Origin: Alloacidobacterium dinghuense
GTDB lineage: Bacteria > Acidobacteriota > Terriglobia > Terriglobales > Acidobacteriaceae
Reading direction: 5' to 3'
DNA: 64,000 bases
Assembly: GCF_014274465.1 (NCBI RefSeq)
Contig: NZ_CP060394.1
Location: 3,534,001 to 3,598,000, forward strand
The notes under the pieces are model-generated. The model had not been told where the DNA came from, did not search any database, and saw nothing but the letters and a program-made list of their open reading frames with translations. Shown here piece by piece: positions 15,403 to 47,762 of this stretch. The first letter of the stretch is position 1; every line of letters begins with the position of its first letter. A program made the translations under genes and the position numbers.

Positions 15403-17037
15403 TCACTCCGCCAACGCGAAACTGAATAGATCGGTGCCTGATGCGATGGCGACGTACTGTTTGCCCCGTACCGCATAACTCATCGGGGATGCGTGAAGAG
15501 TTTGCCCGGTGTTAAAGTGCCACAGCGACTTGCCGGTCTTGGCATCCGCCGCTTCAAGAAAATCTGCATCATCGGCAAAAAAGACAAGACCGGTCGCGGT
15601 TGTCATGACGCCACCCCAGGAATGAGAATCCCCTGCTTGCGGGTAGCGCCATACAAAAGACTTCGTTTGGGGATCGAAGGCAAGAAGGATCCGTTCCGTT
15701 TTATCGTTTGGATCGTGCCTGGTTCCTGTTGAGTAATACTCTCGGCCCTCTTCAAATGGGGCTGGTTTCACAAAATACACCGAGCAACCCTCAAGAGCCA
15801 AAAAGTAGAACAAGTGTGTCGCTTCGCTATAAGAAGGCGAGAACCAGTTGGTAGCACCTACGACACCGGGACAAATCAGGGTTCCATCCGGGGTCGGCTT
15901 TAAGTCCGTAACCATCGGACGACCATTGGCGTCCACTCCGGTCGCCCAATTGATCTTCTTTGCAAATGGTGTAGCCGATAGGAATTCTCCATTGGTTCGA
16001 TCAAGGAGATAGATAAACCCATTTCGGTTTGCCTCGATCAGAAGCTTTCTCGGTTTTCCCTGATATTGCATGTCTACCAGGACGGGTGTCTCCGCACCAT
16101 CGTAGTCATATAGATCATGCGGTGTGAATTGGAAGTACCATTTCAATTTTCCGGTATCCGGATCGATCGCCAGTAGACTCGCGGTGTAAAGGTCATCGCC
16201 TGGCCGGACGCTGCCATCGTAATCCGGCGCTGCGTTGCTGGTGCCCCAGTATAGGGTATTCAGCTCTGGATCATATGTTCCCGGCATCCAGGTGGTCCCA
16301 CCACCGTGCAAATAACTATCTCCAGGCCAGCTTGAAGAGCCGAATTCTCCCGGGCCGGGAATCGTCCACAGACGCCATGCCAACTTGCCGGAAATAGAGT
16401 CGTAGGCCGCAAGAAAGCCGCGAACTCCATCGTCGCCGCCTGAGGTTCCTACCAGTACTTTGTCTTTTACGATCAGTGGGGCACTTGTAGCTCCGTAGTT
16501 CTTGTTCCAGCTGGCGTATGCCACGTCCCAGATCAGGTTTCCTGATCGTGCATCCAGACACAAGAGGTGAGCATTGTCGGTTTCCATGTAAAGTCGCGTC
16601 CCCAGGAGAGCAACACCGCGGTTGATATGCCCGGAGGCGTCATCGATCAAGCCCTGGGAAACGGGCCGAGAATAGTGCCACTGGATCTGTCCGGTTTGCG
16701 CATTGAGGGCATATGCATCATTGGAAGCCGTGACGTACATGATCCCATTGACAACCACGGGGGTAACTTCAAGAATGCCGGCATTTCTGCTGTGGAAGAC
16801 CCATTGAGCCTGAAGATGTCCGACATTTTGCGGCGTGATTTGCGTAAGGCTGCTAAAGCGCCTGCCTGTGTAATCACCGTTGTAAGAAGGCCAGTCGTCT
16901 TTAATCGTTCGAGAGAGCAGTTGTGAGGGTTGTACGCCTGGAGCATGTGCGAGGGATGGATCGCTATCCTGCCCGCTCAATGGAATAGACAACATATACG
17001 CACATACGGCGATTAGCCATCTCCTGTGTAGCCTCAT
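15403..17037 (-). CDS. PQQ-dependent dehydrogenase (quinoprotein alcohol/sugar type), exported
   Basis: The start at 17037 has AAGGG ten bases before it; an ATG at 17055 overlaps the previous stop but has poor spacing. A signal peptide (LIAVCAYMLSIPLSG) precedes an eight-bladed propeller with the quinoprotein opening WPSYNGDYTGRRFSSLTQI and central GATSAPLIVKDKVLVGTSGGD. Unlike quinohaemoproteins it has no cytochrome domain of its own. A separate dihaem cytochrome is encoded four genes upstream and is the likely electron acceptor. It is the last gene of the eight-gene cluster. The substrate is unknown; aldoses or alcohols are typical. Confidence 0.85.
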   Translation of the reverse strand: MRLHRRWLIAVCAYMLSIPLSGQDSDPSLAHAPGVQPSQLLSRTIKDDWPSYNGDYTGRRFSSLTQITPQNVGHLQAQWVFHSRNAGILEVTPVVVNGIMYVTASNDAYALNAQTGQIQWHYSRPVSQGLIDDASGHINRGVALLGTRLYMETDNAHLLCLDARSGNLIWDVAYASWNKNYGATSAPLIVKDKVLVGTSGGDDGVRGFLAAYDSISGKLAWRLWTIPGPGEFGSSSWPGDSYLHGGGTTWMPGTYDPELNTLYWGTSNAAPDYDGSVRPGDDLYTASLLAIDPDTGKLKWYFQFTPHDLYDYDGAETPVLVDMQYQGKPRKLLIEANRNGFIYLLDRTNGEFLSATPFAKKINWATGVDANGRPMVTDLKPTPDGTLICPGVVGATNWFSPSYSEATHLFYFLALEGCSVYFVKPAPFEEGREYYSTGTRHDPNDKTERILLAFDPQTKSFVWRYPQAGDSHSWGGVMTTATGLVFFADDADFLEAADAKTGKSLWHFNTGQTLHASPMSYAVRGKQYVAIASGTDLFSFALAE

Positions 17038-17041
17038 GCGG

Positions 17042-18418
17042 TCAGCGCCCTTCATCCCTTCCGGTTACAACTACCTCCCCGAGAGCTCCGCGATCGAGTC
17101 CGCTGCTATCGATCAAGTGAACCGAGACTCGCGCCACACTCTTAGTCGTGGTTATCGTTTGTGAGAGCTGAACCGGGTCTTGCGGTTGAACCGATTGGAG
17201 GGAGACTTCCCCCGTTTCTGCGCCACCTTCATCATAAAGATATGCCTTCAGCGCGCCGGGGAAGAAGACGCCAAAACTGCCCGAAAGCTCGAGCTTCCCG
17301 GCACTGTTCTTTGCGGCGAGAGGCCGACCCACCAAGCCTGCGTCAGTAACAGTTTTCAAGTCGGGGCTCATACGTGATGGAAACCAGTAGCTATCCATTG
17401 CGTATGTTTCGCCGGGCGCCAAGACCGCCATAGGGCTGTTCAGTTCCGCCTCCATATAGTAAGGAGTCTCTTCAAGATTTTTTGAGGTCAGATAGGGCAT
17501 ACCCTGCGCATTCAGTTGCACAGTGGGTCCGTTCTTGTAGAAGATAACCGAAGCCTTGTCGGGATAATCTGCCCCCTCGATATACCTGGTCTTTTCGACC
17601 ATCGCATAGTGAGTTGCGCCATCGACCAACGCAATCCAACCGGCAGTTGAGTCGAGCCAGACCTCGTTTTCGAGGTATCTCCAATTTAGTCGAAATAGTC
17701 CATCCCTTACGCTAAAAGAGGGATCATTCGCCAGCCCATCGCGGACATGGTAGCCATTCAAATATGAGGAGCGGGGATTGAGCGGCGCATAGGCCCAAAA
17801 GTCATGATTGTAGTGGTTAGGATTGCTGGCGTCGGACAGGTCATACTGAGAGACGGACTGCACAGACCAGGCGATCGAGTGGCCCGTGATGTTCCTGGTA
17901 ATCGCATGAAAGAAGATTTCAGGGGAGTCGCTGCCGATACTTATCTCGCGCGTGTATTGGAGACCCGTAGGCGGGTCCGGTGGACCCTCCAACCGCACGG
18001 TGCAGCGATTGTTTTGCGACAAAATCGAGAAGGCATATGCACCGTCGTCTAGAGGGGTGGAAGCTCCTGTCCAGTGCTGCTCATCATCATTGCCTTCGGG
18101 TAAAGGCCAAATCTTGTCGCCGCCATAGTTAATCCAACGGCCCGCAGCCTCGGCCGGAGAAATGTACTTACCTTTATAAACCTGGTTGACGAATAAATAG
18201 GGGTGCCCATTAAAACTGACCTGCATCAGCCTGCCGCCCAACTGAGGAACAAAGGTCAACTTCACCCATTCGTTCGCCAGCTCCTGGGCTTGCCAACCGT
18301 CGAAGACTACTGCATGAATTTGACATGAAGACGATGGAGTGGGTGCGGACTGCTGAGCACTCGTCGAGGAAACCACGAGAGCAAAGGCAAGGTAGCAGCT
18401 GACGGCAGTCAATTTCAT
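17042..18418 (-). CDS. Exported DUF4380 protein (galactose-mutarotase-like fold)
   Basis: A signal peptide (residues 1-21, ending SSTSAQQ) leads into a DUF4380 domain with FVPQLGGRLMQVSFNGHPYLFVN and WINYGGDKIWPLPEG. The family resembles aldose epimerases and carbohydrate-binding beta-sandwich proteins. In this cluster it could bind or epimerise a sugar substrate in the periplasm before oxidation; this is inference. Its stop lies 4 bp before the preferred start of the PQQ-dehydrogenase gene, showing coupling. It begins 16 bp after the triple-RidA gene. Confidence 0.8.
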   Translation of the reverse strand: MKLTAVSCYLAFALVVSSTSAQQSAPTPSSSCQIHAVVFDGWQAQELANEWVKLTFVPQLGGRLMQVSFNGHPYLFVNQVYKGKYISPAEAAGRWINYGGDKIWPLPEGNDDEQHWTGASTPLDDGAYAFSILSQNNRCTVRLEGPPDPPTGLQYTREISIGSDSPEIFFHAITRNITGHSIAWSVQSVSQYDLSDASNPNHYNHDFWAYAPLNPRSSYLNGYHVRDGLANDPSFSVRDGLFRLNWRYLENEVWLDSTAGWIALVDGATHYAMVEKTRYIEGADYPDKASVIFYKNGPTVQLNAQGMPYLTSKNLEETPYYMEAELNSPMAVLAPGETYAMDSYWFPSRMSPDLKTVTDAGLVGRPLAAKNSAGKLELSGSFGVFFPGALKAYLYDEGGAETGEVSLQSVQPQDPVQLSQTITTTKSVARVSVHLIDSSGLDRGALGEVVVTGRDEGR

Positions 18419-18434
18419 CTACGTGCGCCCTCGG

Positions 18435-19685
18435 TCAATTGGCCGCATGGCCGGTGGGTGAGTGTTTTACCGCGATGAAGGAAATTTGCTCGGCAGCCTC
18501 ATCGTTCACTTCGAGGTTCTGCTGCAGCACCGATCTGGCAGGATAACGGCCCTCAAAAAACTTACCGTATATCGCGTTCACTCGATCGGCGTCCTGTATC
18601 TGGCGCAAATAGACTGTACTGAAAACAACATCGGAGAAATCCATGTCGGCTTCTTCCAATCCATCCAAAAGATTGCGCATGGACTGTCGCAGTTGCAGTT
18701 CAAGGTCAGGCGTGACTATGCCTTGACCCGGAATGAAGCCGTCTTTAGCGGAGAGATACAACGTGTCGCCATAGAGAATGCCAGGGCTGGCAGTGGGGCT
18801 GGGAGGCATATTTCTTGGCCGGATCGCTTTGCGTTTGCTGAGGTCTGCTCCAGCGATGCAACTAAATACGATGTGATCCCCTTTAGGCAGACCGACGACT
18901 TGGATAGTCCCGCGGCCCGGTGTATTGCCAAATTCAAAATAACTCGCGTAAATCTTGCCCATAACGTCGTATTGTCCGCCGACGCTCATGTAGGGATTCA
19001 CCCATAGAACATTCTTCATGCTTAGCCGGGCAGCCTTGAGCACGGTACTTACATTATCGAGAGCTTGCCTGACTTCTACGGAAAAGTCAGGCGCCTGTTT
19101 CCCGGTGAGCGGATCCCGACCTCCCTGCGCCGACAGATACACGATTTCACCTGCCCGGATTGCAGGCGGGTCCACGTGCGGGTCTCGCGCCCAACCTGCT
19201 GGCCAAATCGCTTCTCTGTGAATCGTGTCTGCCACGGCAATGCAGTTGATTTCCACCTTTTCCCCATCCGGAAGAGCGGCAACCGTCAGAACAGTCCGCG
19301 CTGGAGGGCTTTGGCCGATTGTCTGCCAATAAACCTCGTTCATCCCTGCCACGTCCTGCTCATCCGCGAGATAGATGTTCATCCAAACAACATTCCCCAA
19401 ATTCATGCTTGCGCCCTTCAGCACAGCCTGGACGTTGCTTAGGGCTTGCGCGACTTGTTCGGCGAACGACGCTGGACGTGTGCCGTCGGGCTTACGGCTT
19501 CCTTGACCGGATATGTAGAGCGTGTCCCCGGTCAGAATGCCAGGACTATAGAACGAACCGGCAGCTGCATAGTCCTGCGGTTGAATGACTTTGAATCCGG
19601 AGTCTTGGGCAACGAGGTTGAGCCCGAACGCGCAGAAAAAAAAGCAGGTAAAGAATGGAAGGCTGCGCTTGAACCGATCGATCAT
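18435..19685 (-). CDS. Exported protein with three tandem RidA (YjgF/UK114) domains
   Basis: A signal peptide (residues 1-26) precedes three RidA-type repeats, at about 40-155, 160-280 and 285-410. RidA proteins hydrolyse reactive enamines and imines made by PLP enzymes. The active-site arginine is kept in each repeat: PPARTVL, TPGRGTI and YPARSVL. A normal RidA is a trimer of about 130-residue subunits, so one chain may form a whole pseudo-trimer. Export is unusual because the classical PLP lyase partners are cytoplasmic. A Tat-exported PLP enzyme four genes upstream makes a matching partner. Confidence 0.88.
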   Translation of the reverse strand: MIDRFKRSLPFFTCFFFCAFGLNLVAQDSGFKVIQPQDYAAAGSFYSPGILTGDTLYISGQGSRKPDGTRPASFAEQVAQALSNVQAVLKGASMNLGNVVWMNIYLADEQDVAGMNEVYWQTIGQSPPARTVLTVAALPDGEKVEINCIAVADTIHREAIWPAGWARDPHVDPPAIRAGEIVYLSAQGGRDPLTGKQAPDFSVEVRQALDNVSTVLKAARLSMKNVLWVNPYMSVGGQYDVMGKIYASYFEFGNTPGRGTIQVVGLPKGDHIVFSCIAGADLSKRKAIRPRNMPPSPTASPGILYGDTLYLSAKDGFIPGQGIVTPDLELQLRQSMRNLLDGLEEADMDFSDVVFSTVYLRQIQDADRVNAIYGKFFEGRYPARSVLQQNLEVNDEAAEQISFIAVKHSPTGHAAN

Positions 19686-19719
19686 TTCTCCTCCGGAGAT
19701 GAGGGCCTGTTAACAGGCT

Positions 19720-20754
19720 CTAGTGCGCTTGTAGATAGGGGACGAATCCGTGTGCTAGGGTCCCTATTTTGTACACGGATGTCGTTGCTGTTATGTACAG
19801 GGTTGAGTAGTCAGGGTCTCCCCATGCGAGATTTGCCGGCTGCTCGGGAACTACGATGGTCCCCAAGTGAACGCCACGCGGAGACCATACCCATATACCC
19901 CTTGGACCTACCACATACAGATTGCCGTTTCGATCAACCTTCATGCCGTCCGGTACGCCGTCCTTTGGACCACCTGGCTCTGTCCCGAAGATCCGTCCGT
20001 TGCTCAATCTACCGTCCGCGTGGAAGTCATATACGTGGATATTTCGCTGGGTGGAATCATCAACATACAACTTGGTGCCGTCTGGAGAAAACGCGAGCCC
20101 ATTGGGATCTTCTACGTCCTTTGTCAGCAGTTGAATTTGACCGTCCAGCGCGATGCGATAGACGCCTTTAAAGGGAAGTTCCTGCTTCTGCCCGCGAGGC
20201 AAGTCGGAAGTTGGATCAGTAAAGTAAATAGCGCCATCCGGACCGAGCACCACGTCGTTGGGACTGTTTAAACGCTTACCCTGGTAGTGGTCCGCGACTA
20301 TTTTGTAGCTTTTGCCATCGGGCGACAGACGGATGATCGCCCGCAGCACGCTGGCGCAGTCTAAGAGACGATGTTGTGGATCATAGGTATTGCCATCGGG
20401 GTCGCCCAGAGAGATGATTTCCTGTTTTTGACCAGTGGAAGTGTTTACCTTGAAAATCTTGTTGAGAGTTTCATCGCTTACCCAGAGATAACCGGAGCTA
20501 TCCCAAACAGGCCCCTCGGTAAAACCGAAGCCCGAAGCCAGCTTGGTCAGCTGTGCTTTTCGATCAAAGAGAGTCCAAAACTCGGGCGTAAGGGCATGAA
20601 GTTCGAACGCCGCTTTGTTCGCTTCTCCATAACCTGGGCGGTGGGCTGATCCCGCAAACAGCAACAAGGTCAAAGCGGCTATCGCAACCTTGAGGGTGAC
20701 GATGTTGAACCACGAGTCCTTGGCGCGAAAAAATAAGTGATTATTCGTCATCAT
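19720..20754 (-). CDS. Exported SMP-30/gluconolactonase-family lactonase
   Basis: The start is one of two adjacent ATGs at 20754/20751, overlapping the end of the cytochrome gene, so translation is coupled. A signal anchor or peptide (IAALTLLLFAGSA) is followed by a six-bladed propeller with the metal-ligand segments GFTEGPVW, NSPNDVV, DPNGLAFSPDG and DGMKVDRNGN. Family members open sugar lactones. Downstream of a PQQ sugar dehydrogenase, which makes lactones, this is a natural next enzyme. Confidence 0.87.
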   Translation of the reverse strand: MMTNNHLFFRAKDSWFNIVTLKVAIAALTLLLFAGSAHRPGYGEANKAAFELHALTPEFWTLFDRKAQLTKLASGFGFTEGPVWDSSGYLWVSDETLNKIFKVNTSTGQKQEIISLGDPDGNTYDPQHRLLDCASVLRAIIRLSPDGKSYKIVADHYQGKRLNSPNDVVLGPDGAIYFTDPTSDLPRGQKQELPFKGVYRIALDGQIQLLTKDVEDPNGLAFSPDGTKLYVDDSTQRNIHVYDFHADGRLSNGRIFGTEPGGPKDGVPDGMKVDRNGNLYVVGPRGIWVWSPRGVHLGTIVVPEQPANLAWGDPDYSTLYITATTSVYKIGTLAHGFVPYLQAH

Positions 20755-21577
20755 CGTCAGATTTTGAAGATTGTGTTGGGGAGCGTTTGGAGTTTTCACT
20801 TCCCACATGAAGGAGATAACTGACCAGGTCATTTATCTGTTCGTCATTCAACATCGATCCGTAGTTGACCGGCATCAGCGAGTGAGACCCAAGATCTATG
20901 TGGGTGAGTTGTGACTTCTGAAAAAAATGAAAGTCGCCGTCCATTGTCTGGATCGAAACGGAAAAATTATCGTCCACTTTGAGCATTCCAGTGAACTTCT
21001 GCCCTGTGCGCGTCACGACGGTTGTGGCCTTCTTCTGGGGAGGCAAATTCCTTTCAGGATCCAAAATCATGCTTCGGATCTGGCTGGCGCTTTCGTCACC
21101 TCCGTAAAGCGAAAGATCACTGCCAATAAAGCCACCTTTCCCACTGACCATGTGGCATTCTGAGCATCGTGCTCCACCAAAGAAAAGAGCTTCTCCGCTC
21201 TTCGCGCTTCCGGGAAGCTTGATCTCGATTTGCCGCCCTTGCAGAGTTCGTAAGTATTGAACAATGGCAGTCAATTTCTCTTGCCCGAGCCAGTCAAATG
21301 CAGGCATACCAGTCCCGGAGACTCCATTTTTCGCGATCGCAATCAGGTCTGAATCGGCGAGTCGCTGCACGTCTGGAGCAGTCGCAATGTCCGGCGCGTG
21401 TTCGCCCCCGCGACCATCGGACCCGTGACAACCTCCGCAGTTGGAGGCGAAGAGCATCGATCCTTGAACATCCGCTGGAGTGGCAGTGCTTGCTGGTTGT
21501 TGTGCGCTCAGATTCGTGATCGATACCAATCCAAGCAGCAAACATTGGACGGAGATCGTGTGCCACCAACTCCTCAT
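20741..21577 (-). CDS. Exported dihaem cytochrome c
   Basis: The start at 21577 is preferred because AGAGG lies ten bases upstream and a signal peptide (VQCLLLGLVSITNLSA) follows. The first class-I domain has CGGCH and a likely axial Met in GTGMPAF. The second domain has CSECH and resembles the haem-binding module of large planctomycete-type cytochromes (SQIRSMILDPERNLPPQ). The acidic tail ends in DDDDE. It should carry electrons from the PQQ dehydrogenase to the respiratory chain. A decayed copy of its signal-peptide region lies at 23997-24060. Confidence 0.88.
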   Translation of the reverse strand: MRSWWHTISVQCLLLGLVSITNLSAQQPASTATPADVQGSMLFASNCGGCHGSDGRGGEHAPDIATAPDVQRLADSDLIAIAKNGVSGTGMPAFDWLGQEKLTAIVQYLRTLQGRQIEIKLPGSAKSGEALFFGGARCSECHMVSGKGGFIGSDLSLYGGDESASQIRSMILDPERNLPPQKKATTVVTRTGQKFTGMLKVDDNFSVSIQTMDGDFHFFQKSQLTHIDLGSHSLMPVNYGSMLNDEQINDLVSYLLHVGSENSKRSPTQSSKSDDDDE

Positions 21578-21641
21578 TCGCCAAAGACCTCTTTCAACGT
21601 TCGATACCCACTGTGCCAGCACCAGGCTTGCACCCAGGGCG

Positions 21642-22547
21642 TTAGTGTTCTGCGCCTATTTGCACCATACCCGGATACCACGAGCGCACGGCGAGAATAC
21701 GGGACTTGACGTTGGCGGCACTGTAATATCCGACAGTGCAATTAAGCCGGAAGAAATAGGCATCCCCCGCTTTAGCGGGATGCCGCCCTGCGATTCCTTC
21801 CATTCCGCTTCCTGCGACCATCTCGCCGTGGCCGCTCAAAACCAGGTATATCTCTTCTTCGCGCTCGTGGTGATGAGGAAAGTTAGTGCCGCCTGGTGCG
21901 ATTTCCATCAGGAATAGGCTGGTCAAAACGCGGCCGGCTGCAATGCGGTCGCGCTTACTGTCGACATCTCCCATCAGCAGACGGTAACGAGTCGAATCAG
22001 GGTGGCCGCTCACCATAGTTGTCGGGACATCCTCGATGTTGGCCTTAAGAGGCTGCGGCGGTGGTTGAGTTTCCTCAAAGCCTTTAGTACGAAAACCCAT
22101 AATGATCACGGTGAGTGGCATGTCAGACGTATTGCTCAGAGCATGCGCAATCGTTGATGGAATATATAAGTAGTCTTCTTTCTTAAGCGAGACGATTGCA
22201 TCTCCATACTTCACGGAGCCCGTGCCTTCGAGCACCACGTACACTTGGTCTTCGTCTGGATATTGAACCGAACCGCAGACGCCATTCGGATCAATCACCG
22301 CTTCTCCATAACGCGCTACTCCGACGACTACAGATGTATCCGAGTCTCCCTGGCCGAACAACGCCCGGTAGTGGCACGTCTTCGTCGTAATATCTGACTT
22401 CTTCTCCGCGACCGCAGAAGTATCACGATAAAGAAAGGTGGGATCGATCTTGCGATCGTTCGCGTGGAGCAGAGGTGCGCAGAAAATTCCCATGAGCAGG
22501 GCCACGAGCCTGATGGCATGGCGTCGGCTGTCTGCCCCGTGGCACAT
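21642..22547 (-). CDS. Exported bicupin protein
   Basis: A signal peptide (RLVALLMGIFCAPLLHA) follows the chosen ATG; a GTG at 22658, directly behind the upstream stop, is an alternative start. Two cupin barrels lie at about residues 70-160 and 190-290. The first lacks the usual His pair (YPDEDQVYVVLEG), whereas the second has FPHHHEREEEIYLVLSG and should bind a metal. Bicupins include isomerases and dioxygenases acting on keto-sugar acids. Such a role would fit between a deaminating lyase and sugar oxidation, but the sequence does not prove it. Confidence 0.78.
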   Translation of the reverse strand: MCHGADSRRHAIRLVALLMGIFCAPLLHANDRKIDPTFLYRDTSAVAEKKSDITTKTCHYRALFGQGDSDTSVVVGVARYGEAVIDPNGVCGSVQYPDEDQVYVVLEGTGSVKYGDAIVSLKKEDYLYIPSTIAHALSNTSDMPLTVIIMGFRTKGFEETQPPPQPLKANIEDVPTTMVSGHPDSTRYRLLMGDVDSKRDRIAAGRVLTSLFLMEIAPGGTNFPHHHEREEEIYLVLSGHGEMVAGSGMEGIAGRHPAKAGDAYFFRLNCTVGYYSAANVKSRILAVRSWYPGMVQIGAEH

Positions 22548-22658
22548 TGCGATTAAAGAAAGTCTCTCGGTGTCTATGTATCCGTTCACTGCATTCGACT
22601 CTGCCTGAATCCGGTAAAGCACTGTTTTGCGATTGCGATTCAAAGGCTGAAGAAGCAC

Positions 22659-23960
22659 TTACCCCGACTGTTTGCGGGCCTTATCAAGAATCTGACGTAG
22701 GCGATTCCCGACCGTCAGATCTTCCCCCTGTTGTAAGGTCATCGAGATAATTTGCAACTCATTCGGAGCCGCCTCCTCTTTGGCCTTGGGATCATCGCCT
22801 TCGCGGACTGCTGGTACTCCACTTGGATTATTGTTCGTGAGCACCTCAATGCGAGGTTCGCCGTCCCGTAGCTGTTGAGCGCATTGCTCCACCGTCAAAC
22901 CGAACCTCTGCACGTCCCACTTTACAGTCAGGGTCGGATAGCTGTTCTCTTCCTTGGGGGTCATGATGGACGTGGTGACTCCTGGTACGGTTTGAACCAA
23001 CTTCTCGATGCGTTCAACCCGGCTCTGCCACTCTTTAGTTAGGGCCGCAAGATCAGCCTGGGACCAATAGTCGATTGCTGCAAGAATCCCGATAATCTCC
23101 TCTTTGCCGACCTTCATGGGCCGACATACAGCGCCCTCCCATGGATTGTTATTTGCCATTGCCGCATCAATCAGATCCTTCCGGCCTAGCAGCACACCAG
23201 AACATTGCGGACCACCCAGACCCTTTCCGCCGCTAAAGCAATAAAGGTCGACGCCAATCTTTGCGTAGCGTCTGAAATTCTCAAACGGGGGAATGCCTGC
23301 CGCATCGTCCAGCAGCAGGGGGACGCCGGCGGCGCGTGTGATCTTCAGCGTATTCGGTAAGCGGTCGTCCCGCCAGGTTGTATAGACCATGGCGGTTTGC
23401 GGAGTAATGGCCGATTGCAAATTGTCCACTCCATGAGCAAGCACCAATTGGCCTCCGGCAAGCCGTATCGCACTGTCGAATGCGCTCCGCCCTCCCAGCA
23501 TCACGACTTCATGTTTCAAACCAGTAGTGTCGGGCAGTTGCCACACATTTTTTGGGTCGGTCCCGGCGATGCAGCCCGCAGTCGCCAGAGCCATCGCGCC
23601 AGCCGAGCCAGACGTGACCATTCCGGATTCGGCGCCGGAAAGCTCCGCAAGCCTTTTGCCTGCTGCGCGCTGCAGTTCAAACAAGTCAACAAATTGCCGT
23701 GATGCAGCCTCGACCGCTTCCCGCACCCCCGGTAGTTCCAGTGACCCGCTCAGATAAGTCCACGTCCCCCGCCCATTGATCAATGGCCGGACCCCAAGGC
23801 GGGTATAAACATCGGCGGAGGAAGATCTTCCTGTAGTAGCCGCCACGGTGCTCGCAAGACTTCGCGAGGCAATCGTGGCGAAGAGAGGAGCAGCGGCCAG
23901 CAATCTAAGGAAAGATCGCCGATCATTCAGGCTATTTTTGAGCTCACGCTCGGGCAGCAT
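22659..23960 (-). CDS. Tat-exported SelA/DgaE-like PLP-dependent enzyme
   Basis: The N-terminus has a twin-arginine motif, DRRSFLRLLAAAPLF, pointing to export of a folded, cofactor-loaded enzyme. The fold-type-I body resembles selenocysteine synthase and D-glucosaminate-6-phosphate ammonia-lyase. GVRPLINGRGTWTYLSGSLE is near the N-terminus, LLLDDAAGIPP holds the pyridine-binding Asp, and CFSGGKGLGGPQCSG holds the probable PLP lysine. The family performs beta-elimination on amino acids or amino sugar acids and releases an enamine. The start has AAAGGA five bases upstream. It directly follows the TonB receptor gene. Confidence 0.82.
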   Translation of the reverse strand: MLPERELKNSLNDRRSFLRLLAAAPLFATIASRSLASTVAATTGRSSSADVYTRLGVRPLINGRGTWTYLSGSLELPGVREAVEAASRQFVDLFELQRAAGKRLAELSGAESGMVTSGSAGAMALATAGCIAGTDPKNVWQLPDTTGLKHEVVMLGGRSAFDSAIRLAGGQLVLAHGVDNLQSAITPQTAMVYTTWRDDRLPNTLKITRAAGVPLLLDDAAGIPPFENFRRYAKIGVDLYCFSGGKGLGGPQCSGVLLGRKDLIDAAMANNNPWEGAVCRPMKVGKEEIIGILAAIDYWSQADLAALTKEWQSRVERIEKLVQTVPGVTTSIMTPKEENSYPTLTVKWDVQRFGLTVEQCAQQLRDGEPRIEVLTNNNPSGVPAVREGDDPKAKEEAAPNELQIISMTLQQGEDLTVGNRLRQILDKARKQSG

Positions 23961-23996
23961 AATGTTCCTTTCCTACTGCAGCTGCCCCTCGGGCCC

Positions 23997-24060
23997 GCTG
24001 GTTGTTGTGCGCGCAGAGTCGTGATCGATACCAGTCCAAGAACCGAGAATTGGCGGAGAT
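23997..24060 (-). pseudogene. Relic of a second cytochrome c gene 5' end
   Basis: These 64 bases align with 21492-21556, the signal-peptide part of the cytochrome gene, at about 86 percent identity with one gap. The minus-strand translation still reads LGLVSITTLRAQQPAG against LGLVSITNLSAQQPAS. No start or haem motif survives. It sits between the TonB receptor and PLP genes and marks a past duplication or rearrangement. Confidence 0.65.
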
Positions 24061-24078
24061 ACTGAACACAAGTTTTTC

Positions 24079-27000
24079 TTAGAACAGGAACTTCAATGCA
24101 ATTTGCATGATACGGGGATCGTTGGCGCCAGTTACATAACCGAAACCACCCTGGCCGGTGTTGTTGACTAGCCCATTCGGATTCGTGAACTGCGCATGGT
24201 TGAAGACATTGAATGCTTCTGCCCGAAACTGCAGCTTAGTGTTCTCGGTAATGTTCGTGCTCTTCAGCAGCGCCAAATCATAGTTATCGATGCCAGGACC
24301 GGAAAAGTATCGCCGCATTGCGTTGCCTACTTGCCCGATTGTTTCCGGGACGAAGTGGTCCGGGTTGAAATATGGCAGCCCCTTTCGCGGGTTCCGATTT
24401 ATATAAAGAGGGCTGCCGTTGTTCGCGTAATTTGGCACGTCTACGTTCGCATTAAAGGCGCCCAGCAGTGAATTATCGTCATTCTCATTGAGAGTGACCG
24501 GCTCTCCCTTGGCAAACGTAGCTACGCCAGAAAGCTCCCAGCCCGCGGTGAACCGCTTCGCAATATCCCCTCCGCCGATAAAGTGATCGAAGGGCAACTG
24601 TACGGTGAAGCTGGCGACCAGGTTATGCGGAACGTCAAAGCTCGATAATGCGCGGGTTTGAGCCGGATTCAACGGATTGGTCGCATCAAAGGAGTCCGAA
24701 CCGTTATCCAGCGACTTCTCAAAGGTATATCCGATGAGGAAGTTCACGTATTTTTCGTTGTGCTCCAGACTCACCTGCAGCGAGTGGAAGCTGGAGCTGA
24801 CCGCCGTCTTCATGTAGGGATTGCTGTTGAAGTTAATCCCGAAGGTAGGCCTCGTTCCCTCCACTGTCTGACCGCTCGCCGTGGTATAAACCGTATCTTC
24901 GCCGAATGGGCCGCAAGTTGTCGTACCGGGCGCTACATTGGCTGGGTTACTCAATTGGAGGCAGAGCGCCTGGTCCCCGGGATTCGATTCCTCAAACGTC
25001 AGCAGTTGCCTTCCCACTGTGCCGACATAGTTGACGCTGAGCACAGTTGCGGTTCCCAATTGACGCTGGAGAGAGAGTTCCCATTCCTGAACATAGGGCA
25101 CCTTGTTTTTATAGTAGTAATAGTCGGATCCCCCGATGGGCGTGGCAGATGCCCAGTTGAACGTTGTGTCGGGATTCTTAGGCGATACATTGGTTGGGGG
25201 AAAGACGAAGGGGAACTTCTGTCCCGCCGAAATTCCCGACGGCCGATCGACAAACGGGGTGGCCAGTTCAGTCGATGACACAGAGTAGTAGTTGCCGTAA
25301 GGAGCGTCCCCTACCTCGACAAAGCCAGTGGCGTCCTCAATAGAGCTATAGAAAATGCCGTAACCCGCACGTATGCTCATTTTTCCAGGACCGCCCAATA
25401 CCTTGCCAAGAAAACCGTTGCTCAAGTCTGGCGCCCAGGCAAAACCAATTCTAGGAGCAAAGTTGGTGTACTTAGTGGGGCCGAGTGTGCGAGGAATACC
25501 TGGGTCCAAGGGGACAACCAAACCGAGGGGAGCGCCGGGAAATGATAGCGACTGCTCCCCGGGAACGACCGTTTCCAACTTGTTCTGGGTGTCGTACCAG
25601 GGAGTAGCGGCTTCCCAGCGCAGGCCATAGTTGAGGGTGAGATTGCGGGTAGTACGCCAGCTATCCTGAGCATAAAATCCGTAGTATTTGCTCCGCGAAT
25701 CGAGAAGCTGCTGGCTAGCCTGCACAAAGCTGTTTGGCGCCCCGATCAGAAAATCGGCGAAGTCCAGGCCCGTCTCTGAACCATTAAAACCAAAACACCC
25801 GTTGTAGCAGTCGTAGTTACGCTCGTTGATCTGGTTGTAGTGGAGGTTGGTGCCAAACTGCAGCGTGTGCGTTCCAAGAATTTTGGTGACGTTATCGATG
25901 ATCTGAAAAGTGTTGTTGTATTGCCTCAATGCATCCTGCGGGATGCCAAAGGTGAAGTTATTGAATATGAAATTCGCCACACCCTCGTACGCGGGGTTGA
26001 TAGCGGAGATACCGCCCGCGGGGCTCCACGGAGTAACAAAACCCTGCGAGGCAAGGGTGACACCCAAACCCTGGCCCGCGGTGGGTTGGCCGTTCAGGTT
26101 TACATCGCGCAGATATGCGAGACGAACATCGTTGACGGTCGACGAGTTAAACGTGGTGGTCAAACCCAAATTGACCATTTGGGTTTGTCCATGATTGGTT
26201 GCGGCAAAGCCCGGGACCCCGACCCCTTGGGTATACGGATTCACAGTATTGAATCGGTCAAAGAAGTAATAACCGAACACAGCGCCGATTCGTGTAGGAA
26301 TGTCGATCCGTCCGCTGCCCTTATCGTCGCTCAGCGTCCCGTTGTAGGCAGAGGTGGAGAAGTTAGGGGTATTGTTGACAACTCCATTTGCCGTAGGGAG
26401 GTACTTCAGCGTGTTCGCCGCAACCGGCGACCATGCGCTCTGGGGAATGACAGCATTGGGAAAGACGCAGGTTGCGGTGTCCGCGCAGCCCGGAGTGTAA
26501 TAATTTTCACCCTGCGCTACGGGATATCCCAATGTCTGGGAGAGAGTGTTAGCCCAGCCGGCGCCTACGACTGTGCCAGTGAGCGCGGTCGCCTGGTCCG
26601 TCAGGTCACCCGTGCGGTCGGCATCTGATGGCACGGGATAGCTCTGGGTCTGCCCCAAAATCTGCCGTGTACCCTGGTAATCGGCAAACCAGAAAATCTT
26701 GTTCTTGCGGATTGGCCCCCCGACCGTTCCGCCGAATTGATTCTGGATGAACACGCCGCGCGTCGGAGCGTAATAGTTTCTGGCATCCAGAACCGTGTTG
26801 CGCAGGAAGTCGAAGGCCGTGCCGTGATACTGATTGGTTCCCGACTTGGTGACTACATTGATCTGGCCACCGCTGTAGTTTCCATACTCTGCATCGAAGT
26901 TGTTGGTGATGATACGGAACTGCGCGATGGAGTCGAGATTGGGAATCATGGCGGCGCCGTTGTGGACGCCTTCTTCCGCATTTGCCCCATTCACCATGAA

Positions 27001-27600
27001 CGCGTTGGACCCGGTGCGGCCCCCGTTGACGGATTGTTGGCCGTTGTCCAGGTCACCCGAGACCTGCGTCGCTCCAACTCCCGACGTGCTGCTGTCCGAG
27101 CTATGGGAATAAGGCGACACGCCTGGTTGCAACTTCAACAGGTCGATGTAGGAACGGCCGTTCAACGGCACAGAAGTAATCTTCTGGCCGTCGATGACTA
27201 CGCCATTCTGGGTGCTCTGTGTTTCCACCTGTAACGCATCACTCTTGACGCTTACAGTATTGGTCACTGCTCCGATCTCCATCGGGATGTCGATGCGAAG
27301 GGCGGAATTCGCATCGATCTTTACACCAGTCTGCAAATAGTCACGAAATCCGGCCTGCTTAACGCTGACGTCGTAAACGCCAACATTGAGGGTTGGAAAA
27401 CTGTAAAACCCCTTGGAGTCGGTGACGGCTGTCGTGGCGACATTGGTCGACTCTTGCGTGGCGATTATGGTGAGTCCCGGCATAACTGCGCCGGTTGGAT
27501 CAGTGACCACCCCGGAAATCGAGCCGGTAATGGCTGCCCACGTGGTAGCTGCTCCCAGAAGTGCGCCGAAGAGGAAGCCTAGTCTGATAAATCGAGCCAT
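24079..27600 (-). CDS. Oar-like TonB-dependent receptor
   Basis: The start at 27600 is supported by GAAAGG ten bases upstream; an earlier TTG is less likely. After a signal peptide come a carboxypeptidase-regulatory beta-sandwich (GSISGVVTDPTGAVMPG onward, about residues 20-105), a plug domain (VPLNGRSYIDLLKLQPGV), and a long beta-barrel ending in IMQIALKFLF, with the usual terminal aromatic. At 1173 residues it matches the large Oar-like receptors abundant in acidobacteria, which import glycans, peptides or glycoconjugates. It is the first gene of the eight-gene cluster and probably supplies its substrate. Confidence 0.92.
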   Translation of the reverse strand: MARFIRLGFLFGALLGAATTWAAITGSISGVVTDPTGAVMPGLTIIATQESTNVATTAVTDSKGFYSFPTLNVGVYDVSVKQAGFRDYLQTGVKIDANSALRIDIPMEIGAVTNTVSVKSDALQVETQSTQNGVVIDGQKITSVPLNGRSYIDLLKLQPGVSPYSHSSDSSTSGVGATQVSGDLDNGQQSVNGGRTGSNAFMVNGANAEEGVHNGAAMIPNLDSIAQFRIITNNFDAEYGNYSGGQINVVTKSGTNQYHGTAFDFLRNTVLDARNYYAPTRGVFIQNQFGGTVGGPIRKNKIFWFADYQGTRQILGQTQSYPVPSDADRTGDLTDQATALTGTVVGAGWANTLSQTLGYPVAQGENYYTPGCADTATCVFPNAVIPQSAWSPVAANTLKYLPTANGVVNNTPNFSTSAYNGTLSDDKGSGRIDIPTRIGAVFGYYFFDRFNTVNPYTQGVGVPGFAATNHGQTQMVNLGLTTTFNSSTVNDVRLAYLRDVNLNGQPTAGQGLGVTLASQGFVTPWSPAGGISAINPAYEGVANFIFNNFTFGIPQDALRQYNNTFQIIDNVTKILGTHTLQFGTNLHYNQINERNYDCYNGCFGFNGSETGLDFADFLIGAPNSFVQASQQLLDSRSKYYGFYAQDSWRTTRNLTLNYGLRWEAATPWYDTQNKLETVVPGEQSLSFPGAPLGLVVPLDPGIPRTLGPTKYTNFAPRIGFAWAPDLSNGFLGKVLGGPGKMSIRAGYGIFYSSIEDATGFVEVGDAPYGNYYSVSSTELATPFVDRPSGISAGQKFPFVFPPTNVSPKNPDTTFNWASATPIGGSDYYYYKNKVPYVQEWELSLQRQLGTATVLSVNYVGTVGRQLLTFEESNPGDQALCLQLSNPANVAPGTTTCGPFGEDTVYTTASGQTVEGTRPTFGINFNSNPYMKTAVSSSFHSLQVSLEHNEKYVNFLIGYTFEKSLDNGSDSFDATNPLNPAQTRALSSFDVPHNLVASFTVQLPFDHFIGGGDIAKRFTAGWELSGVATFAKGEPVTLNENDDNSLLGAFNANVDVPNYANNGSPLYINRNPRKGLPYFNPDHFVPETIGQVGNAMRRYFSGPGIDNYDLALLKSTNITENTKLQFRAEAFNVFNHAQFTNPNGLVNNTGQGGFGYVTGANDPRIMQIALKFLF

Positions 27601-27666
27601 GGCGGTCCGACCTTTCAAATGACGACTATTACAACGATTGAATACTAAAGGAATCGATGGGAAACG

Positions 27667-27695
27667 ATGGTAATAGTAGGACCTAAAGGTGTCAA
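27667..27695 (-). promoter_or_regulatory. Candidate sigma-70 promoter of the TonB/PQQ cluster
   Basis: On the minus strand TTGACA (27695-27690) is followed after 17 bp by TACCAT (27672-27667). It lies about 65 bp before the receptor start. A GGGGC-GGTT-GCCCC hairpin (27696-27709) directly abuts the -35 box and may end the upstream transcript. Between promoter and start, ATCGTTTCC and ATCGATTCC repeat back to back, a possible regulator site. Confidence 0.45.
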
Positions 27696-46982: not shown

Positions 46983-47762
46983 ATGCAAGCCACTCTCACC
47001 ATCCTCGGCAGCGGCACCTCCATGGGCATCCCCACGCTCGGATGCGGATGCCGCGTCTGCACCTCGCCCGACCCGCGCGACCGCCGCACGCGTGCAGCCA
47101 TCGCCGTCCAATGGGCAGATCACTGCATCCTCATCGACACCGGGCCTGACTTCCGTGAACAGGCACTGCGCGAAAAAATCCGTCACATCGATGCCGTCCT
47201 GTACACACACGCGCATGCCGATCACATTCTCGGCCTCGACGATCTGCGCCCGCTCACCTTTCATCATCCCAACGGCCATATGCCGCTCTATGCCGATGAG
47301 CCCAGCGCGCGCATCATCGAAAAAGTCTTCGACTACACTTTCTCTGCCGAATCCAAATACCCAACGCGTGCACGCGTAAAGATGCATCGCATCCAGGGCC
47401 ACCAGTCCATCGTCATTCATGGAGCCACCTTCCAGCGCATTCCGCTGATCCACGGCGAACAGGAAGTCGCCGGCTTCCGCTTCGGCAATGCCGCCTATCT
47501 CACTGACATGAATGCCATTCCCGACGCCAGCCTTCCCTTTCTCGAAAATCTCGACGTCGTTATCATCGATGCCCTGCGCAAAACCCCGCATCCTAGCCAC
47601 GCGACGATCCAACAGGCCATGATGTGGATCGACCGTCTCAGACCGCGCCGCGCCTGGTTCACGCACATGTCGCACGATCTCCATCACGCCGACACCGACA
47701 ACGAACTGCCGCCGCACATCCGCCTAGCCTACGACGGCCTGCGCATCCCGGTGGAGTTATAG
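46983..47762 (+). CDS. PhnP-like metallo-beta-lactamase-fold phosphodiesterase
   Basis: The start is the ATG at 46983, where conserved sequence begins (ATLTILGSGTSMGIPTLGCGCRVC). The metal motif THAHADHILGLDDLRPL, a CxC-type Cys pair (GCGCRVCTS), and later HGEQ and THMSHDL fit the PhnP/Lpl-like group that cleaves cyclic nucleotides or phosphodiesters. It lies 2 bp before ribF, and the two are surely co-transcribed. Confidence 0.83.
   Translation: MQATLTILGSGTSMGIPTLGCGCRVCTSPDPRDRRTRAAIAVQWADHCILIDTGPDFREQALREKIRHIDAVLYTHAHADHILGLDDLRPLTFHHPNGHMPLYADEPSARIIEKVFDYTFSAESKYPTRARVKMHRIQGHQSIVIHGATFQRIPLIHGEQEVAGFRFGNAAYLTDMNAIPDASLPFLENLDVVIIDALRKTPHPSHATIQQAMMWIDRLRPRRAWFTHMSHDLHHADTDNELPPHIRLAYDGLRIPVEL

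Follow-up and report, generated by a model that had tools for sequence, protein, structure and literature searches.

RidA proteins are understood to protect cytoplasmic pyridoxal 5'-phosphate (PLP) enzymes against enamines. The cluster described here, eight genes in a stretch of 64,000 nucleotides from the acidobacterium Alloacidobacterium dinghuense (the window, G000:C1:3534001-3598000; genome 6.27 Mb, 99.99% complete), holds a RidA protein and a PLP enzyme that both carry export signals. It is best read as known chemistry placed outside the cytoplasm, as a new variant. With about even confidence, we read the cluster from its sequence as an extracytoplasmic deamination module in which a PLP lyase would relay an enamine to RidA.

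Closest described systems

The D-glucosaminate-6-phosphate ammonia-lyase (DGL) shares with the window PLP enzyme the fold, the Schiff-base lysine, the alpha-carboxylate Arg226 and the MKxGKE motif, but has His162-His163 and Arg301 where the window enzyme has Asp-Asp and Thr. According to the available passages of the DGL study (PMC9529869), His163 protonates the enamine before release. The H163A variant is still active while its enamine escapes to solution, a release that the authors linked to RidA, and the His162-His163 pair is described there as strictly conserved. The Schiff-base residue is Lys217 in that paper and 213 by the 7lc0 alignment, while the numbering of His162, His163, and Arg226 agrees. 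DGL-type genes have no RidA in the flanks covered, and the window enzyme, ~25% identical to DGL, differs from it in being exported.

Cap15 (8t7j) belongs to the same SelA-like family and is the top PDB match of the window enzyme. In passages from three papers (PMC7497351, PMC6411801, PMC6384614), it is described as a PLP-dependent monooxygenase-decarboxylase that was first noted for its similarity to SelA. It differs from the window enzyme in being an O2-using natural-product enzyme, and these passages mention neither a Tat (twin-arginine translocation) motif nor a RidA partner. PvdN and PtaA resemble the window enzyme in that they are PLP enzymes which Tat exports in folded form with the cofactor bound, but they tailor pyoverdine in pseudomonads, and the passages seen mention no RidA partner (PMC6206403).

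By analogy, the closest described pathway that we met is the cytoplasmic ong pathway for GlcNAc1A in Pseudoalteromonas, which, in the passages available, depends on a deacetylase resembling D-aminoacylases, a PLP deaminase, and a RidA whose role is unexplained (PMC9537276). With the present clusters it shares a PLP deaminase plus RidA (essential in the ong case), a deacetylase, outer-membrane transport, and a keto-deoxy sugar acid product. It differs in its fold-type III PLP enzyme, its cytoplasmic steps, and its single-domain RidA. The ong genes are recognized by a clustered fold-type III deaminase, OngB deacetylase, and KDG kinase. The window PLP enzyme is SelA/DgaE-like, and no deacetylase or kinase is found among the eight window genes, so the likeness is one of analogy. 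Judging by titles and abstract starts among the matches listed, no exported PLP-RidA set is described in the open-access PMC literature.

The gene cluster and its export signals

Eight open reading frames (ORFs) occupy the minus strand from 27618 to 15403. The ORFs and their family matches bear out the eight genes and the domains named for them in the original prediction. Pyrroloquinoline quinone is abbreviated PQQ.

24079 to 27618, minus strand: outer-membrane beta-barrel receptor, TonB-dependent-like (PF25183 and CarboxypepD_reg)
22659 to 23960, minus strand: SelA/DgaE-like PLP enzyme, Tat-type exported; Lys246 and the GRK arginine kept, Asp-Asp for DGL His162/His163, loop shortened
21642 to 22658, minus strand: exported bicupin with two Cupin_2 stretches; the real start is probably internal
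20741 to 21622, minus strand: exported dihaem cytochrome c; two CXXCH motifs seen by eye, PF13442, TIGR02603
19720 to 20832, minus strand: exported SMP-30/gluconolactonase-like protein (SGL/SMP-30); top PDB match 3e5z, a putative gluconolactonase
18435 to 19685, minus strand: exported triple RidA (RidA3) with three Ribonuc_L-PSP domains, all of which have an equivalent of Arg105 and lack one of Glu120
17042 to 18418, minus strand: exported DUF4380 protein (PF14315); weak match to a mutarotase model, 20.6 bits against a cut-off of 550
15403 to 17055, minus strand: exported quinoprotein alcohol-dehydrogenase-like propeller with PQQ repeats (TIGR03075); vicinal Cys pair lost
27667 to 27695, minus strand: candidate sigma70-like promoter ahead of the receptor gene; 10/12 consensus match, weak

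The PLP and cupin ORFs abut, the DUF4380 and PQQ ORFs overlap by 14 bases, and the SMP-30 and cytochrome ORFs overlap when the longest frames are taken. The gathering cut-off is passed clearly by the SMP-30 protein (PF08450, 161.3 vs 26.3 bits) and marginally by the DUF4380 protein (30.1 vs 29.4 bits). The promoter candidate is weak because sigma70-like sites barely exceed the shuffled count (14 found vs 9.4, standard deviation 3.1).

Export leaders of the window proteins were judged by eye and not by a signal-peptide program. The N-terminus of the PLP enzyme carries the Tat motif NDRRSFLRLLAA, in which Arg14-Arg15 is invariant in all 15 aligned sequences. The other seven proteins have Sec-like hydrophobic N-terminal stretches, which for the cupin, the cytochrome, and the SMP-30 protein fit only from an internal start. 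The predicted export of the whole set thus holds at this level of inspection.

Family and active site of the PLP enzyme

By sequence, the window PLP enzyme is a distant relative of DGL and Cap15. It scores below the cut-offs of both the DgaE equivalog NF047797 (139.3 vs 600 bits) and the selA_rel subfamily TIGR01437 (147.7 vs 385.3 bits). The closest solved structures by sequence and by fold are Cap15 (8t7j; 124.6 bits, 4.3e-35) and DGL (7lc0; 108.8 bits, over most of the length). Foldseek ranked 8t7j, listed as Cap15, first for the predicted model, which is of moderate quality with a mean predicted local distance difference test (pLDDT) score of 70. The Schiff-base Lys (213, chain numbering) and the carboxylate Arg226 are both present. 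The Asp-Asp pair at the position of His162-His163 lies in a shorter loop, and the Thr takes the place of the phosphate-site Arg301. PLP matches of at least 140 bits occur in 19 of the 247 genomes of the phylum, and the window genome has four paralogues.

His163, export, and RidA proximity among PLP proteins

The survey covered 99 distinct PLP proteins after two short fragments and five identical cores were dropped. Among Pseudomonadota matches outside G273, 20 of 22 were taken, the second G445 match and G330:C32 being left out. The strong matches G188:C317, G080:C334, and G050:C32 and the weaker split matches in G044, G069, and G090 were also left out. The Schiff-base Lys is present in all 99 rows. 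His163 is present in 20 proteins, all from Pseudomonadota and none exported (L169 matches the Tat regular expression upstream of its likely start and was counted as not exported), and for none of them is there a RidA within 4.6 kb or more of flank. His163 is absent from the other 79, and 75 of these were judged exported: 73 by the Tat regular expression and two, L044 and L059, by eye from the sequence RREW. A RidA lies within 1 kb in 46 of the 79 and within 3.5 kb in 51. In the window, RidA is 3.1 kb from the PLP gene in the same cluster, with the cupin, cytochrome, and SMP-30 genes between. Arg301 is kept in 20/20 proteins with His163 vs 11/79 of the others, in line with a substrate lacking phosphate.

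On the PLP tree, His163 requires one change, export two, and RidA adjacency (3.5 kb) at least 15, so the pairing with RidA is recurrent. The raw table of His163 against RidA gives a Fisher p of 4.9e-7 with rows treated as independent. The absence of His163 was rejected as an independent predictor of RidA, since a single change on the tree leaves this p without independent replicates. It is retained as mechanism and not as statistics.

Properties of the RidA proteins

The triple RidA passes the TIGR00004 cut-off (204.5 vs 106.25 bits) with three stretches. The equivalent of Arg105, an active-site residue of RidA, is conserved without exception in the three domains of each of 13 aligned RidA3 sequences. 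Among 79 RidA stretches near PLP genes, several of them out of frame, Arg105 is found in 76, Glu120, another residue with a role in RidA, in four, and Asp at the latter position in 17. The third domain of the window protein and of its closest relatives lies beyond 3.5 kb and was judged separately.

A Tat-like motif or hydrophobic leader was flagged in 41 of 49 RidA ORFs near PLP genes, and many of them read SRRGLLKNAA; two of the flagged ORFs (L097:8779 and L047:6326) look out of frame by eye. The eight unflagged ORFs are mostly fragments, contig-edge, or out of frame, with a leader visible by eye in L091 and an unclear case in L050. Most PLP-paired RidAs look exported from these N-termini. 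In the window genome, a leader is missing from the RidA that scores highest for the family, and another RidA, beside the second PLP cluster described below, has one.

Canonical RidA assembles as a trimer of single-domain chains. The structure predicted by AlphaFold for RidA3 (mean pLDDT 82) is as expected for a single-chain pseudo-trimer: its single domains match RidA chains, and the whole chain matches chorismatase 4bps across 352 columns with template modelling (TM) scores of 0.52/0.63. RidA3 thus shares its domain fold with RidA/YjgF and chorismatase but differs from both in being exported and in having three RidA-type domains, each with the Arg.

Conservation of the cluster

A scan of the genome collection for triple RidA gave 17 loci: 11 acidobacterial, three in alphaproteobacterial metagenome-assembled genomes (MAGs) at 50–57% identity, and three weak matches in other bacteria at 29–32%. 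The PLP enzyme and DUF4380 are found in all 11 acidobacterial loci, although DUF4380 in L098 is a 56-residue remnant. The cytochrome c is found in eight, the PQQ propeller in seven, SMP-30 in six, and the cupin in four, or in five with the longer stretch L146 from the L089 genome included. A receptor homologue adjoins eight (six at 66% identity or more, two at 26%). L098 is cut by a contig end, and L090 ends before the PQQ propeller could appear. The order receptor, PLP enzyme, cupin, cytochrome c, SMP-30, RidA3, DUF4380, PQQ propeller is seen in L087 and L094, and without the receptor in L086. Elsewhere the order is RidA3, PLP enzyme, DUF4380, with the receptor, cytochrome, and SMP-30 before or the cytochrome after.

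The RidA3, PLP enzyme, and DUF4380 genes are the core of the cluster, and the PQQ gene, SMP-30, and cupin are accessory. A single conserved operon of eight genes was rejected, as the cupin, SMP-30, and PQQ genes come and go and the order is shuffled. Since membership is kept through this shuffling, the genes are likely to share a function, and the recurrence of the set with altered order in other, related species of Acidobacteriaceae argues against a chance assembly. The coupling of a DgaE-related PLP enzyme to RidA, part of the original prediction, and the conservation of neighbours, whose absence would have spoken against it, are supported across loci. The co-occurrence it put forward as a check for the PLP enzyme, triple RidA, and PQQ gene holds for the first two, with the PQQ gene as an accessory. 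That prediction did not include the absence of the His that protonates the enamine, the pairing of PLP enzymes with RidA in other clusters, or the O2-dependent Cap15 as a rival.

In Alphaproteobacteria, the three triple-RidA genes (L095, L096, L099) have none of the other seven cluster genes beside them; their MAGs hold several Tat PLP enzymes elsewhere. In another alphaproteobacterial MAG (L140, 8956-12304), a PLP gene 66% identical to that of the window is followed by RidA and by a cupin 63% identical, which suggests that a portion of the cluster was transferred, with MAG contamination possible. In a separate arrangement (L097:8838-11239), a tandem triple-RidA pair, its first copy split between frames, lies next to a 78% identical PLP gene.

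Paralogue clusters and substrate context

The window genome has a second cluster (L057, G000:C1:3808300-3828299) in the order RraA aldolase, PLP enzyme, RidA, PLP enzyme, flavin adenine dinucleotide (FAD) oxidase, lactonase, SMP-30. Both PLP enzymes and the RidA are of Tat type, the FAD oxidase is berberine-type, the lactonase belongs to PF10282, and the SMP-30 protein is 62% identical to that of the window. It is flanked by a SIS protein, a sugar transporter of the major facilitator superfamily (MFS), a ROK kinase, and another RidA, and looks like an oxidative amino-sugar pathway in its gene content. The fourth PLP gene of the genome (L058) has no RidA within the stretch examined.

In four loci of the same family (L052, L054, L055, L056), the order is receptor, RraA, PLP enzyme, RidA, PLP enzyme, amidohydrolase, and the L052 amidohydrolase scores above the cut-off of a deacetylase model (407.6 vs 371). 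The same type of amidohydrolase adjoins the DgaE-type gene in 11 of the 20 Pseudomonadota stretches with His163 (L152-L162), and in two further stretches it lies 1.6 and 3.4 kb away. A PF10282-lactonase-like stretch was also noted in six of these 11. In L136, RidA, PLP enzyme, and amidohydrolase are followed by an L-rhamnonate dehydratase, above its cut-off, and a GMC oxidoreductase. In L138, the same three genes precede ORFs resembling those of L136. A PfkB sugar kinase also occurs among the paralogue neighbours, beside ROK, lactonases, and the RraA aldolase.

NagB-like genes are found in six of the 11 acidobacterial triple-RidA loci, the window not being among them, and three that were checked with NCBIfam score 120–130 bits to nagB against a cut-off of 236.9. 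The best model for an MFS gene in L098 is the D-galactonate transporter, with a score under its cut-off. Together, the paralogue neighbours and the NagB-like genes favour an amino-sugar-acid substrate, as judged from gene content. The amino-sugar context of the original prediction is therefore upheld by the NagB-like genes and by the lactonases, deacetylase-type amidohydrolase, RraA, ROK, and transporter genes near the paralogues.

The quinoprotein and the PQQ supply

The propeller scores above the TIGR03075 cut-off for PQQ methanol/ethanol dehydrogenases (501.1 vs 480.05 bits). Its best-scoring model, TIGR04528 (acido-empty-quinoprotein group A), is under its cut-off (542.4 vs 650 bits), and a literature search on that name found no paper. 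Among PDB entries, a type II quinohaemoprotein alcohol dehydrogenase matches it best. The propeller retains the Trp, the Asn, and the catalytic Asp, has Asp in place of the Ca-ligand Glu, and shows A-S where 1kv9 has its vicinal CC.

None of PqqC, PqqE, and PqqB is found above its cut-off in the window genome. PqqC is above its cut-off in six of the 31 genomes searched, while the PqqE and PqqB searches gave no positive above cut-off anywhere. A weak PqqC-like match of the window genome (43.2 bits) was read as another protein, because genomes with a true PqqC carry similar weak counterparts (32–46 bits in five of the six, and 34 bits in a partial match of the sixth). On the plus strand of the window, 46995-47435 gives a weak PqqB-like match (37 bits vs a cut-off of 245), probably another metallo-hydrolase. 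The original prediction had a PQQ aldose dehydrogenase as the entry step. This part is not supported, being weakened by the methanol/ethanol type of the propeller, its lost Cys pair, and the PqqC, PqqE, and PqqB scores under cut-off. The quinoprotein may use scavenged PQQ, or may be empty as the name of TIGR04528 suggests.

Proposed relay and alternative explanations

The sequences themselves show the protein families, the export motifs, the lack of the His, the nearness of RidA, and the conserved clustering; from these we infer the reaction, the release of an enamine, the substrate class, and the order of the steps. The outer-membrane receptor would take up an amino-sugar-type compound, which the exported helpers (SMP-30 lactonase, DUF4380 protein, quinoprotein-like propeller with cytochrome c, and cupin) would prepare or oxidise. 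The PLP enzyme, exported by Tat in a folded state with its cofactor, would strip a 2-amino-3-hydroxy acid, for example a 2-amino-sugar acid, of its beta-hydroxyl, and without the protonating His would release an enamine. The exported triple RidA would hydrolyse this enamine to a 2-keto-3-deoxy acid and ammonia. The acid may then be imported or, in the paralogous clusters, cleaved by the RraA-type aldolase.

Several observations weigh against this relay. The enzyme activity of every cluster member is a prediction, the PLP-enzyme model is only of moderate quality, and its top-scoring PDB relative, Cap15, is O2-dependent. The carboxylate Arg226, though present in the window enzyme, is kept in just 49 of the 99 survey rows. 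No RidA lies within 1 kb of 33 of the 79 enzymes without His163, the window enzyme among them (three of the 33 sit less than 1 kb from a stretch end). In four relatives that lack His163 and are not exported, RidA is missing from the neighbourhood, which fits export, and not loss of the His, as the driver. The loss of His163 and export are inseparable on the tree, and RidA is predicted independently by neither. The Glu120 equivalent is missing from RidA3, where the three window domains have Asn, Ser, and Ser. One exported-looking RidA (L006) lies away from all four PLP genes of the window genome, and genes for a deacetylase, an aldolase, or NagB are missing from the window cluster. Confidence in the relay is slightly reduced by the position of the window enzyme outside the 1-kb class, the retention of Arg226 in only half of the rows, and the occurrence of an exported RidA that lacks a PLP partner.

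If the PLP enzyme were instead a Cap15-like O2-dependent oxidase or oxygenase, a quinonoid would react with O2 and an imine would leave for hydrolysis by RidA, with no beta-elimination. Cap15 is the best match by both sequence and fold, O2 is present outside the cytoplasm, and RidA acts on imines too. We nevertheless consider this unlikely, as the score lead of Cap15 over DGL is modest, the Cap15 passages mention no RidA partner, and the RraA-type aldolase, lactonases, NagB-like genes, and deacetylase near relatives fit a 2-keto-3-deoxy acid product. The same elimination and RidA relay could also act on a 3-hydroxy-D-amino acid of the D-serine/D-threonine type, perhaps from peptides or the cell wall. 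The paralogues are flanked by amidohydrolases of a type to which D-aminoacylases belong, and OngC uses D-serine and D-threonine besides GlcN1A in the passages seen (PMC9537276). The NagB-like, ROK, PfkB, lactonase, and sugar-transporter neighbours speak against such a substrate, and the SMP-30 and quinoprotein genes are hard to fit into D-serine breakdown, which makes it rather improbable.

RidA might also be a guard, needed because the periplasm has no housekeeping RidA, and not a pathway enzyme, with the absence of His163 unrelated. RidA adjacency does go with export, the four non-exported relatives fit, and His163 changes just once on the tree. Fusion of three domains and tight linkage point to high flux, and few other PLP enzymes that could be guarded are known outside the cytoplasm; we doubt this explanation as we doubt the Cap15-like one. 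A role in tailoring a glycan or natural product that is exported, and not in catabolism, is very unlikely for the cluster. PvdN and PtaA, two PLP enzymes exported by Tat, do tailor pyoverdine in the periplasm (PMC6206403), and the available passages place Cap15 in antibiotic synthesis, but no assembly-line genes were noticed among the neighbouring ORFs scanned and an uptake receptor heads the cluster.

Implications

The broader form of the PLP-RidA relay is that Acidobacteria and, by apparent transfer, some Alphaproteobacteria degrade amino-sugar acids extracytoplasmically without phosphorylation. A free enamine, passed from a PLP lyase with no proton donor of its own to an exported RidA pseudo-trimer, would be an obligate intermediate, and RidA would be a periplasmic pathway enzyme and not cytoplasmic damage control. 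We regard this as possible, though tentative. The relay predicts that the lyase alone accumulates an enamine absorbing at ~290 nm and that RidA3 removes it. If the relay is true, the exported PLP-RidA pairing shifts enamine chemistry outside the cytoplasm and gives RidA a catabolic role. This would offer a concrete role for the RidA of the ong pathway, essential yet unexplained in chitin oxidation, and would add a route of nitrogen and carbon acquisition to a common, poorly characterised soil phylum.

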